The notes beneath the pieces are model-generated. The model had not been told where the DNA came from, did no database searches, and saw only the letters and a program-made list of their open reading frames with translations. A program made the position numbers and the translations under genes. From Clostridia bacterium (GTDB taxonomy: Bacteria > Bacillota_A > Clostridia > Peptostreptococcales > JAAYPU01), in NCBI GenBank assembly GCA_022360735.1, contig JAKSCF010000480.1:1-7163 (forward strand): a stretch of 7,163 bases of DNA, given 5' to 3'. Positions 779 through 6,797 of this stretch are shown in pieces (within the stretch, counting starts at the first letter, position 1; each line of letters opens with the position of its first letter).

Positions 779-1570
779 CTAAATCCAACCTGAATAGGGT
801 CTTTGTGCAGTGGCATTATGCAGCCACTTAATAAGAGTAATGAAATCAAAGACAGGTAATTGTGTAGCCTCTTGAACCGCTGCAGCATATGGAGGCATAT
901 CACTACACTCAAGAAGAATTGCACCAATATCACCTTCGTCTTCAAATAAAGATAATGCAGCATCTACAACCTCTTGCTGAGCCATACCATTGTCAAAGCA
1001 ACCTTGGTTTTTAATAATCACAGAGAAATTTTTTGCGTTTTCAAGTCCTCTCACTACAAGATTATTATGGTCGGTAACATTGCAATTATTTAATAACTTA
1101 GGTGTAAATGATGTTGTAGTTGCTGTAAGTATACCTATCTTTTGATTAGGTTTAATAACATTTCTGATCCATGGTATTTGCACTAAACTGGATAGGGCAA
1201 CAGGTACATCAACGGCTTGGGCTACTTGTTTATGATAGTTTCCAAAAAAGCCACAAGCGGAGCATATTGCTCTTACTCCGTCTTTCTCAATTAAGTGTTT
1301 AGCCGTTTCGATTAAATCCTTTAATAGTGTTTCGTCTGCCGAAAAAAGTCGGTCACAAACACTGTTAGGCACAGCTTTCATCCGCACAGGAAAATCATAT
1401 GTGCAAGCATTGACTACATTTCCCGGAAGCATGGGATAATATACATCTTCGATATATACAATTCCCACTGAATAACCTGCCACCTGTTGGTGATTAACCC
1501 CTCTTATAGATCTCTTGTTATTAGTATCTGTAAGGTATCCATATTGCCTGCCTTTCAACCTTTCGTTCAT
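779..1570 (-). CDS. Aspartate/glutamate racemase-family protein
   Basis: A 263-residue protein of the Asp/Glu/hydantoin racemase superfamily, whose members are cofactor-independent and use two cysteines as acid and base. Both expected cysteines are visible: C106 in the SACGFF stretch (with C103 nearby) and C222 in LLECSDMPP, followed by the conserved PVFDF segment near 239-243. The order and spacing fit the hydantoin racemase / AroM-like branch. I place the start at the ATG at 1570, not the in-frame ATG at 1618, because GAGGAA (1578-1583) sits seven bases upstream of the former while the latter has no binding site and falls inside a palindrome. It lies downstream of an amino acid transporter and upstream of the ferredoxin, with no clear terminator on the ferredoxin side, so it is probably co-transcribed. 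Interconverting D and L forms of the transported amino acid is an inference; maleate isomerase or decarboxylase-like chemistry also occurs in this superfamily. Confidence 0.82.
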   Translation of the reverse strand: MNERLKGRQYGYLTDTNNKRSIRGVNHQQVAGYSVGIVYIEDVYYPMLPGNVVNACTYDFPVRMKAVPNSVCDRLFSADETLLKDLIETAKHLIEKDGVRAICSACGFFGNYHKQVAQAVDVPVALSSLVQIPWIRNVIKPNQKIGILTATTTSFTPKLLNNCNVTDHNNLVVRGLENAKNFSVIIKNQGCFDNGMAQQEVVDAALSLFEDEGDIGAILLECSDMPPYAAAVQEATQLPVFDFITLIKWLHNATAQRPYSGWI

Positions 1571-1577
1571 TTTATAT

Positions 1578-1583
1578 TTCCTC
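1578..1583 (-). promoter_or_regulatory. Ribosome binding site that decides the racemase start
   Basis: The minus strand reads GAGGAA, with seven bases to the ATG at 1570-1568. The longer possible start at 1618 lacks any such site, so the 16 extra N-terminal codons are probably not translated. Confidence 0.7.
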
Positions 1584-1595
1584 GCACACTTGTTT

Positions 1596-1601
1596 ATTAT
1601 A
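1596..1601 (-). promoter_or_regulatory. Possible -10 element before the racemase gene
   Basis: The minus strand has a perfect TATAAT here, which would start a transcript about 20 bases before the racemase start codon. The matching -35 region (about 1619-1624, CAAAGC) is poor and lies inside the arm of the large inverted repeat. An independent promoter is possible only if it is weak or regulator-dependent. Confidence 0.3.
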
Positions 1602-1612
1602 TGTTTAGAAAA

Positions 1613-1674
1613 TACCATGCTTTGAATTTTAACTTTATATTACATGCATAATATAAATAATTCAAGGCATGGTA
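1613..1674. repeat. Large nearly perfect inverted repeat (two-tier hairpin) between transporter and racemase
   Basis: The outer arms are 1613-1628 and 1659-1674, complementary over 16 bases with one G/T-type exception. After a small asymmetric internal loop, inner arms at 1634-1642 and 1649-1657 pair perfectly over nine bases around a six-base loop (CATGCA). On the minus-strand transcript the hairpin is followed by UAUUUUCU, a weak uridine run. It could end or attenuate transporter transcription, protect the transporter mRNA 3' end, or act as a DNA site overlapping the possible -35 of the racemase. The outer arm is only moderately GC-rich, so this is not a classic strong terminator. Confidence 0.7.
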
Positions 1675-1735: not shown

Positions 1736-3160
1736 TTAAAACTTTTTAGAAAATACTACGGATGCGATTATTACACCGATACTTGTAATAAATAGACCAA
1801 TGTATCCTGTTTCATACAGACTCTTAATATTCCAAATAAGAACATACGTAATTACTAAGGGTAGAATATACTTAAGGGCGAAAAACCAAGTATCAAATAA
1901 AGCGAATGGTTTTTTACCACTGTTTGTAATCTCATCTAATAATTCTTCTTTACCCATTCTCCATGAAGCAAATACAGCTACAAATAAACCTGCTAATGCT
2001 ATGAACATACCACTTGAAAAGAAGTCATATACGCCGAATGCGCCAACACCAAATAACTTGGGTCCTACTCCTCCCATAGACAGTGAAGCAAGTATACACA
2101 TTACAACCATTATTACCGATGAACCTAAGGTAGCCTTTTTTCTTGATATGTTTTTTTCTTCAATTAGGTATGATACAACAACTTCTTGTAAACCTATTGA
2201 AGAAGTAATAGCAGCAACAAATAAACCTATGAAGAAAAGTATAGCGAGCACTATTCCGAAGCCACCCATTCCTGCAAACACTGTTGGCATAACTGTAAAT
2301 ACTAGTCCAAAACCTCCTGCTGGGTCTTGCCCATAAGCAAAGAGTGCTGGAAATAATGCAATTCCTGCCAAAATAGCCATACATGTATCCAATCCAACAA
2401 CCCAACCTGCGTTTGACACTATGTTATCGTCTTTTCTTATATAAGAACCATAGGTTGACATAGTACCAAAACCTATTCCGATTGAGAAGAATGCCTGTCC
2501 TAATGCCTTCGCTGCTACACCTCCGTCAATCGTACTAAAGTCAGGCTTAAACAAGAATTCTAAACCTGCCATTGCTCCTGGAAGAGATAAGCCTCTTATG
2601 GCTATAACAACAAGTATTATTGCCAGTGCAGGCATAAATATTTTAGCAGCTTTTTCAATACCACCTTGTATACCTTTAAGAACTATTGTTAAGTTAGCTA
2701 CAAGGTAAATTGACAACCATATAATGGGAGCTGTAGGATTAGCAATAAAACTATCAAATGTCGCTTGATATCCAGCGGGATCAGTTGACAGAAGGCCGCC
2801 TAAAACCTTAGGTATATAAGCCAAAGCCCAACCACCTATAACAGGGAAATATCCCATAACAAAGAAGCAAACCATAAATCCTAAAATACCAGCAAATGAA
2901 AATCTTTTGTCATAGGCTTTTATTGCCCCTACCGTGGCCTTTTGTTTTCTTCTTCCAACTGCAAATTCCCCTAGTGTTAAAGTAAAACCAATTATAACAA
3001 CAAAACTTAAGTAAAGAAGAACAAATGCACCACCACCATTGCTGCCAGCCATATAAGGAAACTTCCATATGTTTCCTAAACCAACAGCAGAGCCTGTAGC
3101 GGCTAAAATAAATCCAACTTTGGAACTCCAATTTTCTCTTTGGCCTGTCGTCTGTTCCAT
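1736..3160 (-). CDS. Sodium-dependent amino acid transporter, NSS (SNF) family
   Basis: A 474-residue membrane protein of the neurotransmitter:sodium symporter family (LeuT/TnaT/Tyt1/MhsT relatives). The N-terminus contains the family hallmark GSAVGLGNIWKFPY (23-36), the unwound part of TM1 that binds substrate and sodium, with N30 at the LeuT Asn27 position. The unwound TM6 is at about 224-241 (FFSIGIGFG), and T319-S320 in TM8 match the second sodium site. About twelve hydrophobic segments can be drawn, the last at 453-470. D258 in TM7 (LDTCMAILAG) is probably the acidic residue that replaces chloride in bacterial NSS proteins; this is an alignment by eye. The start has a very strong site (AAGGAGGT, 3167-3174). 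The gene follows the desulfidase by 151 bp and probably shares its transcript. The substrate cannot be read from sequence; the context suggests cysteine, serine or a related amino acid. Confidence 0.94.
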   Translation of the reverse strand: MEQTTGQRENWSSKVGFILAATGSAVGLGNIWKFPYMAGSNGGGAFVLLYLSFVVIIGFTLTLGEFAVGRRKQKATVGAIKAYDKRFSFAGILGFMVCFFVMGYFPVIGGWALAYIPKVLGGLLSTDPAGYQATFDSFIANPTAPIIWLSIYLVANLTIVLKGIQGGIEKAAKIFMPALAIILVVIAIRGLSLPGAMAGLEFLFKPDFSTIDGGVAAKALGQAFFSIGIGFGTMSTYGSYIRKDDNIVSNAGWVVGLDTCMAILAGIALFPALFAYGQDPAGGFGLVFTVMPTVFAGMGGFGIVLAILFFIGLFVAAITSSIGLQEVVVSYLIEEKNISRKKATLGSSVIMVVMCILASLSMGGVGPKLFGVGAFGVYDFFSSGMFIALAGLFVAVFASWRMGKEELLDEITNSGKKPFALFDTWFFALKYILPLVITYVLIWNIKSLYETGYIGLFITSIGVIIASVVFSKKF

Positions 3161-3311: not shown

Positions 3312-4637
3312 CTAGCAGAGCGTACCCTGCTTCTTCTTAACATCACAAACAAATTCATCGGTAGATGACATACATTGTTTTTGAAGTTGATAGATATTTT
3401 CGATGGTACCTTCTACGGTGTCATGCACTATTCCTTCAATGCTGCTTGAACTAAGGCCTCTTTCAGCCATCAACATAGCATGTAATGCCCCCACCAAACC
3501 TGTGTAGGATCTATAAGCACAACTTGGCTTTGCCCCATCACAAATTGCACCTGCCATGTTCCCCAACGCAGAACGTACAGTGTCTGAAATCTGTTCTATT
3601 GTCGCACCATGAAGATAAGCTACACCACTTGCTGCCGCCGCCGTTGCTACACCACAACAGTAACACATTGGAGACAAGTGTGCATATTCGTTGGATTTAT
3701 AATCAAGAAAAATGTTCATCAAATTTGAAAACGCCACGGCACGCATAATTTCTTCCTCACTGCGGTTAAGGTATTCGCCGGCTGCCATAGGTGCCATGCT
3801 GGAAAGGAGTCCCTGATTTCCACTCCCGGTGTTACTCATGGCAGGGTAGTCGCTACCACCCATACGTGCATCTAAACCGGCAATGGTCCACATACAGATG
3901 TGTGCAATCTCATCATTTGCAATCACACCCTTGTCGATGTTTACTTTTATTGTACGAGCCACTTCTATTCCAAAAGGATTATCTAAGCCGTCTTTACAGA
4001 CAACCCGAGTTAATTCCATAGCTTTTTTAATATGCGTTAGATCGCTAATATCGCAATTTTTACAAAAGTCGTAAATACTTTCCACTGAAAGGAAAGAAGA
4101 ATCCAAGTGGGTATTTTTCTCAGCTTCTACTGCTGCTGCTTCTTCTTCACGGCTGCCAAACAGCACTTCGCCGTCCTTTTCAATGTATTTGATACCATTA
4201 TGTTCGCTCCACATACTAACTGTAACTGTGTGCTGATCAGTTTCCAATGTGGTTCTTAAATAAATTGATGGAGCTGGACTGACCATATCTATGGAGATTT
4301 TTCCCTCCGCTACGAACTCTTCTATAAGCTTTTCTGCATTTTTTACGTCTTCTTCCGTTACATTGTTCAGCACTTCCATGTCTAGATCAGCATCACCTGC
4401 TGTTATACCGAGAACAGTTGATAGGAAGCCACCTCGTTTACCGCCTGTATTTGGAATGCCTACCGACTGCACACCTATGATCATTAGGCCAGATCCTACC
4501 ATAGTAATACGCTTAATTTTACCAGGTGCATATTTGCGGGCCGTAGCTCCATTAAGTGCAAACGCCACCGGCTCGGTGCATCCCAATGCCGGAATAAGCT
4601 CAGTCTCCAAAACCTTCACAAATTGATCTTTTTTCAT
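3312..4637 (-). CDS. L-cysteine desulfidase / Fe-S serine dehydratase-like enzyme, UPF0597 (YhaM/CyuA) family
   Basis: A 441-residue cytoplasmic protein matching the UPF0597 family over its full length (E. coli YhaM/CyuA is similar in size). Characterised members are oxygen-sensitive iron-sulfur enzymes that split L-cysteine into pyruvate, ammonia and sulfide; the C-terminal part resembles the alpha domain of iron-sulfur L-serine dehydratase. Likely cluster ligands are C20 in the N-terminal GCTEP motif, a cysteine in the MCYCC group (C325, C327, C328), and C366 or C373 in the GAICDGAKPSC motif. NTGSGNQG (269-276) is another family signature. The start has GAGGAGA at 4644-4650, six bases upstream. 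It is the first gene after a strong promoter and a long repeat-bearing leader and is followed by an NSS transporter, which fits an uptake-and-breakdown pair. Its base composition looks richer in GC than the transporter's. Activity on cysteine versus serine or another amino acid is not decided by sequence. Confidence 0.88.
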   Translation of the reverse strand: MKKDQFVKVLETELIPALGCTEPVAFALNGATARKYAPGKIKRITMVGSGLMIIGVQSVGIPNTGGKRGGFLSTVLGITAGDADLDMEVLNNVTEEDVKNAEKLIEEFVAEGKISIDMVSPAPSIYLRTTLETDQHTVTVSMWSEHNGIKYIEKDGEVLFGSREEEAAAVEAEKNTHLDSSFLSVESIYDFCKNCDISDLTHIKKAMELTRVVCKDGLDNPFGIEVARTIKVNIDKGVIANDEIAHICMWTIAGLDARMGGSDYPAMSNTGSGNQGLLSSMAPMAAGEYLNRSEEEIMRAVAFSNLMNIFLDYKSNEYAHLSPMCYCCGVATAAAASGVAYLHGATIEQISDTVRSALGNMAGAICDGAKPSCAYRSYTGLVGALHAMLMAERGLSSSSIEGIVHDTVEGTIENIYQLQKQCMSSTDEFVCDVKKKQGTLC

Positions 4638-4675
4638 AATAAATCTCCTCTCGTTCTTTCACAAGTTTATTTCAA

Positions 4676-4687
4676 CGGCAATTGCCG
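4676..4687. repeat. 12-bp perfect palindrome near the desulfidase start
   Basis: CGGCAATTGCCG is its own reverse complement. As RNA it would make a four-pair CGGC/GCCG stem with an AAUU loop about 25 bases upstream of the ribosome binding site. As DNA it could be a dimer-binding site. Confidence 0.5.
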
Positions 4688-4715
4688 CCTATATCCTACA
4701 ACAAGTGGTCTGAAT

Positions 4716-4746: not shown

Positions 4747-4753
4747 CCGCTTC

Positions 4754-4944
4754 CACGATCACTACAACAAACTCCCTTATAATGGAATTTTATTCGTTAT
4801 AAGGGACGACAAATGCAAAAAAAATACAAACTTTATCTATTCTTTTTTCACGATCACTACAACAGAGTCCCCTATGATGGAATTTTATTCGCTATAAGGG
4901 ACGGAAAATGTAAAAAAAAATACAAACCGTTTCTCTTCCTTTTT
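4754..4944 (-). repeat. Tandem duplication of a ~95-bp hairpin-bearing unit in the leader
   Basis: Two contiguous copies: 4754-4848 (95 bp) and 4849-4944 (96 bp). The 77/78-bp cores (4754-4830 and 4849-4926) differ at eight positions plus one extra A by hand alignment; the rest is an A/G-rich segment (minus strand) with looser similarity. Each copy holds a stem-loop. In the first the arms are 4773-4782 and 4797-4806 (ten perfect pairs); in the second they are 4867-4877 and 4892-4902. Differences in the second stem give two G-U pairs and one mismatch if read as minus-strand RNA, against one wobble and two mismatches as plus-strand RNA, which mildly favours a minus-strand RNA role. The loop sequence GAATAAAATTC is identical in both. 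Each copy ends, in transcript direction, with TGTTGTAGTGATCGTG. The copy nearest the promoter begins at the predicted transcription start. Confidence 0.85.
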
Positions 4945-4951
4945 CAGCAAC

Positions 4952-4980
4952 AGCATATCATATATATAAAAAAATGTCAA
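4952..4980 (-). promoter_or_regulatory. Sigma-A-type promoter of the desulfidase gene
   Basis: The minus strand has a perfect -35 TTGACA (4980-4975), a 17-bp spacer and -10 TATGCT (4957-4952), preceded by TG at 4960-4959, an extended -10. A start near 4944 follows. It lies downstream of the regulator gene, so the desulfidase-transporter genes need not depend on readthrough from it. Confidence 0.72.
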
Positions 4981-5002: not shown

Positions 5003-5107
5003 ATTATATCCCATTCATTAAGGCAAGTATGCTGGCTAAACAGCCGCCATGTAAAATCTTGTACACTATAAAGGAATAGCCTTGGGATTCCCTGTGGTTA
5101 TGAGCCT

Positions 5108-5665
5108 CTACTCATAGCTGACTATGAAGTGTACAATGGCATCTACCTGGCCATTGTTTATATACTTATGGTTTTCTTTTGAATCGAATGCGATAGCACT
5201 GCCTGCTTTGATGTGGTAGGAATTTGCACCGACGACTAATTCGATTTCCCCTTGAGAAACCAACAAATATTCCGTATTGCTGTTCATATGGTTTACCGAA
5301 GGATAATTGCATCCGGGTTTGAGGATGCCGTAAAAAAGCTCAAAACCGCTTATGGGTGAAAACGGGAAAATGCAGTAGACTTGGATATGGTCGTCATTGT
5401 CCGTCAACGGCGTCATATTGTCAATGCTTTTTACATCATATAGCTTATTTGAATTTTCCAATAGCGTTTCAAATTTAATTTTTAGGCCGTTTGCAATTTT
5501 CCAGACAGTAGCGATTGTTGGAATGGATTCAGAGCGTTCTATTTGGCTGAGCATGGTTTTGCTTACTCCTGTCATGGAAGAAACCTCACTGAGGCTGAGG
5601 CCCATCTTGTTTCGCGTGTTTTTCAGCTTTTCTCCCAGCGGAGAATTCATATAAAAATCGTTCAT
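5108..5665 (-). CDS. XRE-family transcriptional regulator with C-terminal cupin domain
   Basis: A 185-residue two-domain regulator. Residues about 10-66 form a helix-turn-helix of the Cro/C1 type, with a recognition helix around SKTMLSQIERSESIPT (35-50). Residues about 105-182 form a small cupin barrel (EYLLVSQGEIEL, then HIKAGSAIAF and ENHKYIN). This architecture (PuuR/SutR-like) usually senses a small metabolite in the cupin and often controls amino acid or polyamine breakdown genes. The start at 5665 has AAAGGGG about nine to ten bases upstream; the next ATG, at 5650, has none. It stands first in the leftward cluster and has its own promoter, so it is the obvious candidate regulator of the desulfidase-transporter genes, perhaps responding to their substrate. 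That role and the ligand are inferred from position. Confidence 0.9.
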   Translation of the reverse strand: MNDFYMNSPLGEKLKNTRNKMGLSLSEVSSMTGVSKTMLSQIERSESIPTIATVWKIANGLKIKFETLLENSNKLYDVKSIDNMTPLTDNDDHIQVYCIFPFSPISGFELFYGILKPGCNYPSVNHMNSNTEYLLVSQGEIELVVGANSYHIKAGSAIAFDSKENHKYINNGQVDAIVHFIVSYE

Positions 5666-5705: not shown

Positions 5706-5714
5706 ATTATAGCA
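5706..5714 (-). promoter_or_regulatory. Extended -10 promoter of the XRE-cupin gene
   Basis: The minus strand reads TGCTATAAT, a perfect -10 with the TG extension, predicting a start near 5699 and a leader of about 34 bases. The -35 at the normal distance is weak, as is common with extended -10 promoters. CACCAT (5717-5722) and ATGGTG (5751-5756) form a spaced inverted repeat just upstream that could bind a regulator. Confidence 0.6.
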
Positions 5715-5796
5715 TACACCATAAAATATTTGTGATCAAGATAAAAAATAATGGTGAAAAATATTAGCAAAGAATATATGGAGCACATTCAAATGC

Positions 5797-5866: not shown

Positions 5867-5895
5867 TACTAATCTTAAGCAGTTTATGATTAGTA
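5867..5895 (+). promoter_or_regulatory. Hairpin just upstream of the ABC ATPase ribosome binding site
   Basis: TACTAATC (5867-5874) pairs perfectly with GATTAGTA (5888-5895) around a 13-base loop. It ends three bases before the GAAAGG ribosome binding site (5898-5903) and covers the alternative upstream ATG at 5886, which argues against using that start. It could stabilise the mRNA 5' region or tune translation. Confidence 0.45.
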
Positions 5896-5897
5896 AT

Positions 5898-5903
5898 GAA
5901 AGG
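5898..5903 (+). promoter_or_regulatory. Ribosome binding site that decides the ABC ATPase start
   Basis: GAAAGG lies nine bases before the ATG at 5913. The in-frame ATG at 5886 has no binding site and would add nine residues before the normal family N-terminus. Confidence 0.6.
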
Positions 5904-5912
5904 TTGTTCAAC

Positions 5913-6797
5913 ATGATAGAAGTTAATAATTTAACTCAGGTATATAAAAGCGGTAAAGGTGTGTTTGATTTAAACTTTAGGATTAAAGAGGGAGAAGTCT
6001 TTGGGTATTTAGGACCTAATGGAGCAGGTAAAACCACTACCATTAGAAATCTATTGGGCTTTGCTAATGCCACTAAAGGGAGTGCTAAAATTAATGGCAT
6101 AGATTGTAGAAGGGAAGCCTCAAAACTTCAAAGCAGTATAGGTTACCTTCCGGGTGAAATTGCATTTTTAGATCATATGACAGGGATGCAGTTTCTGAAA
6201 TTCATGGGGCAGATGCGAAGAACTAAAGATCTTTCAATTCGTGATAATCTAATTGAAAGGTTAGAGCTGGACACAAAAGGTAAGATAAAAAAGATGTCAA
6301 AAGGAATGAAGCAAAAACTAGCTATTATTACGGCCTTTATGCATGATCCTTCCGTTTACATATTAGATGAGCCCACTAGCGGGCTTGATCCTTTTATGCA
6401 AAATATTTTTATGGAATTAATGGATAAGGAGAAAGGAAGAGGTAAGACCATTATGATGTCTTCACATATTTTTGGAGAAGTACAGAGAAGCTGCGACAGA
6501 GCCGGGATTATTAAAGACGGAAAAATTGTTGCCATTGAAGACATTCAATCCTTAAATGCCTTAAAGCAGGAAACCTATGTCATAACGCTTGCTGATTCTG
6601 CGGATGTGGACAAGCTGATGAAATCAAACCTAACGGTTAAAAAAATATCTCAACGCCGAGTACGTATAACCGTAAGTCATAACTATAAAAAATTCTTTGA
6701 AATCCTATCCATTTGTAGTGTTGTAGGTTTAAGTGCTCAGCAACAATCTTTGGAGGATGTATTTATGAAATATTATGGAGAGGAGGGTGTCTCATGA
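5913..6797 (+). CDS. ABC-2-type transporter ATP-binding protein
   Basis: A 294-residue ATPase of the type that powers ABC-2 exporters. Counting from the ATG at 5913: Walker A GPNGAGKTT (34-42), signature MSKGMKQK (128-135, a variant of LSGGQ usual in this group), Walker B VYILDEP (148-154), D-loop SGLDP (156-160) and switch histidine H185 in SSHIF. The Q-loop glutamine is replaced in GYLPGE (77-82), which is common in this subfamily. A C-terminal extension of about 80 residues ends with SLEDVFMKYYG, the standard end of these exporters' ATPases. The stop overlaps the start of the membrane subunit, so the two are coupled and should form one complex at the cytoplasmic membrane. Such pairs often export drugs or peptides, but the substrate is unknown. 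It is divergent from the amino acid cluster. Confidence 0.93.
   Translation: MIEVNNLTQVYKSGKGVFDLNFRIKEGEVFGYLGPNGAGKTTTIRNLLGFANATKGSAKINGIDCRREASKLQSSIGYLPGEIAFLDHMTGMQFLKFMGQMRRTKDLSIRDNLIERLELDTKGKIKKMSKGMKQKLAIITAFMHDPSVYILDEPTSGLDPFMQNIFMELMDKEKGRGKTIMMSSHIFGEVQRSCDRAGIIKDGKIVAIEDIQSLNALKQETYVITLADSADVDKLMKSNLTVKKISQRRVRITVSHNYKKFFEILSICSVVGLSAQQQSLEDVFMKYYGEEGVS

Follow-up and report, generated by a model that had tools for sequence, protein, structure and literature searches.

A leader element upstream of a cysteine desulfidase-like gene, conserved at two loci, is a candidate cis-acting structured RNA

The pan motif is a simple hairpin, mostly found in tandem upstream of metabolic operons, according to the available part of its description (PMC2864571). 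The aptamer units of guanidine-II riboswitches are small hairpins, as stated in the accessible sections of PMC9481103. In the portion at hand of PMC7901475, XRE-cupin factors of Pseudomonas inhibit adjoining genes, and palindromic motifs were derived for them. The uORFC-8-2 motif, in the accessible text of PMC8632094, is a uORF with tandem Cys codons that is linked to CysS. Here, we describe a repeated element in the leader of a gene for an L-cysteine-desulfidase-like enzyme. The window, by which we mean the whole stretch of DNA analysed (7,163 nucleotides of a Clostridia bacterium), has the following features around this leader, and L001 denotes the orthologous locus.

779-1618, minus strand: Asp/Glu racemase superfamily protein (PRK07475 subfamily)
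1736-3160, minus strand: sodium:neurotransmitter symporter family protein (SNF/NSS)
3312-4637, minus strand: SDH_alpha (PF03313), L-cysteine-desulfidase-like enzyme; first gene 3' of the leader
4676-4687, minus strand: palindrome CGGCAATTGCCG before the enzyme start codon; GGCAATTGCCGTTGA is identical in L001 at 5951-5962
4757-4824, minus strand: unit 2, with U-tract, P1 (4817-4814 with 4766-4763), P2 (4807-4799 with 4780-4772) and apical core 4798-4783
4852-4919, minus strand: unit 1, with U-tract, P1 (4912-4909 with 4861-4858), P2 (4902-4894 with 4875-4867) and apical core 4893-4878
4952-4980, minus strand: promoter-like site TTGACA-17-TATGCT with TG before the -10, score 10/12; start expected at about 4945
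5108-5665, minus strand: transcription regulator of the XRE-cupin type, next to the leader on its upstream side and kept in L001

On the minus strand, two contiguous copies of about 95 bp (4846-4919 and 4751-4824) are 88% identical over 74 ungapped nt at a spacing of 95, and a second repeat family with a spacing of 96 stretches the similarity out to 4946/4850. A first-pass annotation of this DNA had reported two contiguous copies with eight mismatches and one indel, an identical loop, and stem changes that were mostly compatible with pairing. The repeat was confirmed, with the eight mismatches counted in a 68-nt core (4852-4919 against 4757-4824, minus strand) and the indel being a one-base difference in U-tract length. 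Each unit consists of a U-tract, a 4-bp P1 (UNCA/UGNA), an internal loop, a P2 of 9-10 bp and an apical loop, the core of which has the consensus ARCGAAYAWAAKUCCA (three sequences). The loop claim held as well: the apical CGAATAAAATTCCAT has the same letters in unit 1 and unit 2. Three of the eight differences fall at paired positions; two are pairing-compatible (A-U to G-U, U-G to U-A) and the third, G-C to G-G, breaks one terminal pair. By eye, TTGTTGTAG, from the 3' part of the unit, occurs again at 4696-4704, before the enzyme gene.

When compared with PDB at E<=0.001, the enzyme matched two distinct sequences, both L-cysteine desulfidases (best E 6e-25, residues 239-433). Its gene has the Shine-Dalgarno sequence GAGGAG at 4645-4650, as read off the sequence. 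A DmsB-like ferredoxin gene also lies downstream, on the same strand as the enzyme gene, and we infer that the enzyme, symporter, racemase-like and ferredoxin genes form one operon, which seems to degrade an amino acid. Two further inverted repeats were noticed in the window. One, at 1614-1675 between the genes for the symporter and the racemase, is a long imperfect hairpin with a weak miRNA-like Rfam match; the other, seen by eye, is a 9-bp inverted repeat TTGTACACT/AGTGTACAA (5059-5067 and 5128-5136) with its arms on either side of the XRE-cupin gene's 3' terminus.

The searches revealed a single orthologous operon, L001 (JAKSCG010000092.1, Halanaerobiales MAG.272), whose enzyme is 90% identical and whose regulator gene shares 81% DNA identity with that of the window over 535 bases. 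A single unit occupies the corresponding position in its leader, with a similar promoter before it and the orthologous gene after it; the leader retains the U-tract, the loop core AACGAACATAAGTCCA and the GGCAATTGCCGTTGA block before the enzyme gene. The loop core is identical to that of unit 1 at 12/16 positions and to that of unit 2 at 13/16, while the loop is longer by 9 nt and the 3' linker by 5 nt than in the window units. Four tests of the local similarity between the unit and the L001 leader, which included or left out the U-tract, each used 500 shuffles, and no shuffle reached the observed value. We regard this as a genuine leader element, conserved at two loci. The palindrome with GGCAATTGCCGTTGA could form a short hairpin or be bound by a protein.

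The two copies in the window lineage probably arose by duplication. Because they are closer to each other (77/94 aligned bases shared) than to L001 (53/94 and 53/95), the duplication, assuming similar rates, probably postdates the separation of the two loci. Since the ortholog has one unit, the tandem state is not a defining feature of the element, and the idea that the tandem arrangement is its essence is not supported. The genes downstream differ in L001, where no symporter gene lies between enzyme and racemase. Two octopine-dehydrogenase-family genes (L001 3393-4607 and 9605-10687) flank the L001 cassette, hinting at an opine-like substrate. In L001 the enzyme frame is also open for 43 codons 5' of its start (5872-6000), probably by chance.

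Next, we considered whether the units fold. The minimum free energy structure of each unit alone (68 nt; 80 nt in L001) contained P1 and P2 in all three. At these lengths the predicted energies are only modestly low, matched by 9/200 shuffles for unit 1, 4/200 for unit 2 and 14/200 for L001; over longer stretches (99 and 98 nt), unit 1 was unremarkable (76/200) and unit 2 was matched by 3/200. The core-flank duplex of L001 was matched by 11 of 2000 shuffles, that of unit 1 by 61 and that of unit 2 by 144. Comparison of structures and of covariation covered three sequences from two loci. From the unedited MAFFT alignment of these, RNAalifold predicted P1 and P2, with an energy matched by 5/500 column shuffles. 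In this alignment 2 of the 18 predicted pairs had a two-sided change and several cells broke; the P1 strand of L001 was out of register, and inner P2 suited the window copies better. In a model-fitted alignment, which favours the structure because the analyst picked the structure and trimmed L001 letters before model building, 37 of 39 paired cells were paired (reached by 26/500 shuffles) and 4 of 13 stem pairs had changed on both sides yet remained paired (10/500 shuffles, none in six slid controls). The two-sided changes include the second pair of P1 (A-U, G-U, G-C). Further pair types, one of the five measures, were not special (84/500 shuffles). These comparisons establish the repeat, its position, and the conservation of its loop and helices in one ortholog.

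Further copies were sought widely. No Rfam 15 family reached its gathering score; the leaders of the window and of L001 each gave two matches, none better than E 1.6 and all far short of gathering, and the six weak matches in the whole window all lay outside the units. The element is thus undescribed in Rfam, as had been supposed. The genome sets searched with a covariance model of the unit, R1, overlap, and those of more than 40 genomes were searched with stricter filters. Among 299 relatives of the genome of L001, five matched at E<=0.1, that genome itself with 53.8 bits and the other four with 25.9-27.6 bits. The L001 genome holds one copy at this threshold, so the unit is not a dispersed repeat there. 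Three of these loci (L023, L024 and L025) overlap frames of protein-coding size; L026 is in no 100-codon frame and has several non-standard pairs. None of the four is convincing. At E<=0.02, two of 398 phylum genomes matched, the genome of L001 and G408 (0.019). The G408 locus (L027, 1501-1562, 28.1 bits) is in no 100-codon frame, has a loop with AAAATCCAT and a well-paired P2, and lacks P1; it also matches R1 on the opposite strand and is possibly a terminator hairpin. Judging this intergenic hairpin by its frames and its fold, we take the match as probably chance, though it may be a relative. In the order of the L001 genome, that genome alone matched among 38.

The ABC-transporter protein of the window has a best relative with 61% identity, and 16/259 phylum genomes had a match at E<=1e-85; in genome sets drawn around this best relative, R1 matched in 0/5 genomes, again in 0 of the same 5, and in 0/13 class genomes including those 5. 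For 16 distant loci of the enzyme and for one locus from a virus, R1 gave no E better than 4.5 (L018). No plasmid matched the two units (4752-4944), and no viral contig matched a DNA pattern of the unit. The three phage records that matched 4752-4944, all of phage Twort (21 nt, E 0.6), were judged chance. The enzyme subfamily itself is rare in the genomes searched, though present in a large protein set. A pattern scan of genome contigs matched 34 stretches, one of which encoded a relative, that of L001; among the 299 relatives, 17 had an enzyme match at E<=1e-60, the 16 besides that of L001 being only 30-39% identical. With the enzyme alignment A2, one of 398 phylum genomes (E<=1e-120) and one of 59 class genomes (E<=1e-100) matched, in both cases the genome of L001. 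One distant locus of the enzyme (32% identity) turned up among viral contigs. Of 7996 candidates scored in the large protein set, 110 passed E<=1e-100; most of these are nameless, some are named as Desulfobacterales, Vibrio, Photobacterium, Desulfovibrio or Cloacibacillus, and proteins P0002-P0037 are 69-80% identical.

The literature searched, which held few subscription papers, yielded no paper on a cysteine riboswitch, and the element is not described in it, including the available parts of PMC7438776, PMC9481103, PMC6429828, PMC8632094, PMC2864571, PMC7266159 and PMC7901475. With nothing convincing outside the genome of L001, the element looks rare, and undescribed in the sources searched. 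A wide occurrence across Clostridia is not supported, as nothing convincing turned up beyond one genome. The undescribed cis-regulatory RNA of the first-pass annotation survives as a minus-strand leader element with one ortholog and no Rfam match, its tandem form being absent from L001. The further locus lies upstream of the orthologous gene and brings some covariation, so the case that the annotation named as refuting, a unit in no other genome and with no covariation, does not apply.

The unit would be transcribed if the promoter-like site before copy 1 is used. An independent promoter had been proposed there; the site is present and has a counterpart in L001 (TTGACT-17-TATTTT, 5765-5793; 5 such sites there against an expectation of 2.2), but is weak on its own, since 551 bases of the window contain 3 such sites against 2.0 expected. 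No terminator-like site was seen in the leader of the window or of L001. In folding predictions for both loci, the Shine-Dalgarno sequence was less accessible in the free ensemble and more accessible with the units enforced; leaders without units also leave it open, so the opening is not specific to the folded unit, and the predicted shift does no more than hint at translational control.

We lean, modestly, towards the view that the unit acts in cis as a structured RNA within the 5' leader of this desulfidase-like operon. A ligand or protein would read its loop and, as no terminator was seen, the output would lie in translation or in the stability of the mRNA and not in termination. The XRE-cupin regulator is the obvious controller at the DNA level, and the unit might instead be a duplicated DNA operator for this adjoining repressor or for another regulator. 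The regulator gene adjoins the leader upstream in both the window and L001, Pseudomonas XRE-cupin factors repress neighbours and their derived motifs are palindromic (PMC7901475, accessible part), the arms of P2 form an inverted repeat, and a 16-mer upstream of the regulator gene (5847-5832) has 4 mismatches to the unit 2 core. This likeness, however, is at chance level: it was matched by 31/200 shuffles for the unit 2 core, by 69/200 for the unit 1 core (5 mismatches) and by 149/200 for the L001 core (6 mismatches). The regulator promoter instead has a 20-bp block, ACAAATATTTTATGGTGTAT, identical between window 5714-5733 and L001 5018-5037, which is likely to be the regulator's own operator. 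Because of this block and the chance-level core, the operator ranks second to the RNA, and the pair of operators envisaged earlier is weakened. Moreover, each P2 arm changes in step with its partner and the loop sequence is preserved. The 9 nt added to the loop and the 5 nt added to the 3' linker in L001 would be hard to accommodate in a spaced protein-DNA dyad, and from the predicted start it is about 50 and 150 bp downstream to the two cores. We consider an operator unlikely.

A narrower form of the RNA reading, which we place behind the operator and hold to be doubtful, is a very rare, undescribed riboswitch class (a U-tract hairpin with an ARCGAAYAWAAKUCCA loop) for the amino-acid-like substrate of the operon, single in one lineage and a cooperative pair in the other. 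The tandem-riboswitch idea is possible, and rests on a duplication that L001 lacks. The analysis gave no support to sensing of the pathway's substrate or product, and none of its results favours cysteine, serine or glycine as the signal. Lower again, and improbable, is a neutral or merely mRNA-protecting leader hairpin that carries no signal and was duplicated by slippage. It would fit the single unit of L001 and the lack of convincing copies elsewhere in the genomes searched, yet in the alignment of the leaders the loop core and the U-tract are conspicuous, and pure protection would require a stem but no particular loop sequence. Ribosome stalling at the Cys codons of a small leader ORF has a precedent in uORFC-8-2 with its tandem Cys codons (PMC8632094, available part) and candidate short frames with adjacent Cys codons at window 4762-4724 (MIVEAAWQCCHA) and 4745-4689 (MAMLSCIGAMIQTTCCRI), but is very hard to credit, as L001 has no stopped adjacent-Cys frame among the frames listed, its Cys-codon frame continues into the enzyme, and the conserved loop, upstream of the small Cys frames, is left unexplained. 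The frame through the loop itself would encode SLIANKIPS (unit 1) and SLITNKIPL (unit 2), and the L001 counterpart, read by eye, would be SLITNISPL, with a number of silent changes among the three. We rejected this peptide because, again by eye, L001 has a stop codon immediately ahead of it and its first start codon only beyond it, and the listed frames include none of this kind.

As matters stand, the structured RNA that we favour is a candidate for which we have a single ortholog. Were it a sensor, it could help to identify the substrate of the desulfidase-like enzyme subfamily and would offer a natural comparison of one and two copies of a small aptamer. Unlike guanidine-II and glycine riboswitches, the unit has no Rfam match to either, its tandem state is not conserved, and no clear expression platform was recognised; like them, the window leader has two highly similar units (PMC9481103, in its available part). 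The unit differs from XRE-cupin local repressor systems in that its core in the regulator's own promoter is no better than chance, and the locus resembles them in that the regulator gene adjoins a metabolic operon (PMC7901475, accessible portion). The pan motif, as far as the available text of PMC2864571 goes, is found near pantothenate genes and consists of a stem in which two bulged As are conserved, whereas our unit has a conserved apical loop and a U-tract and matches no Rfam family; both are simple hairpins, arranged in tandem ahead of a metabolic operon.
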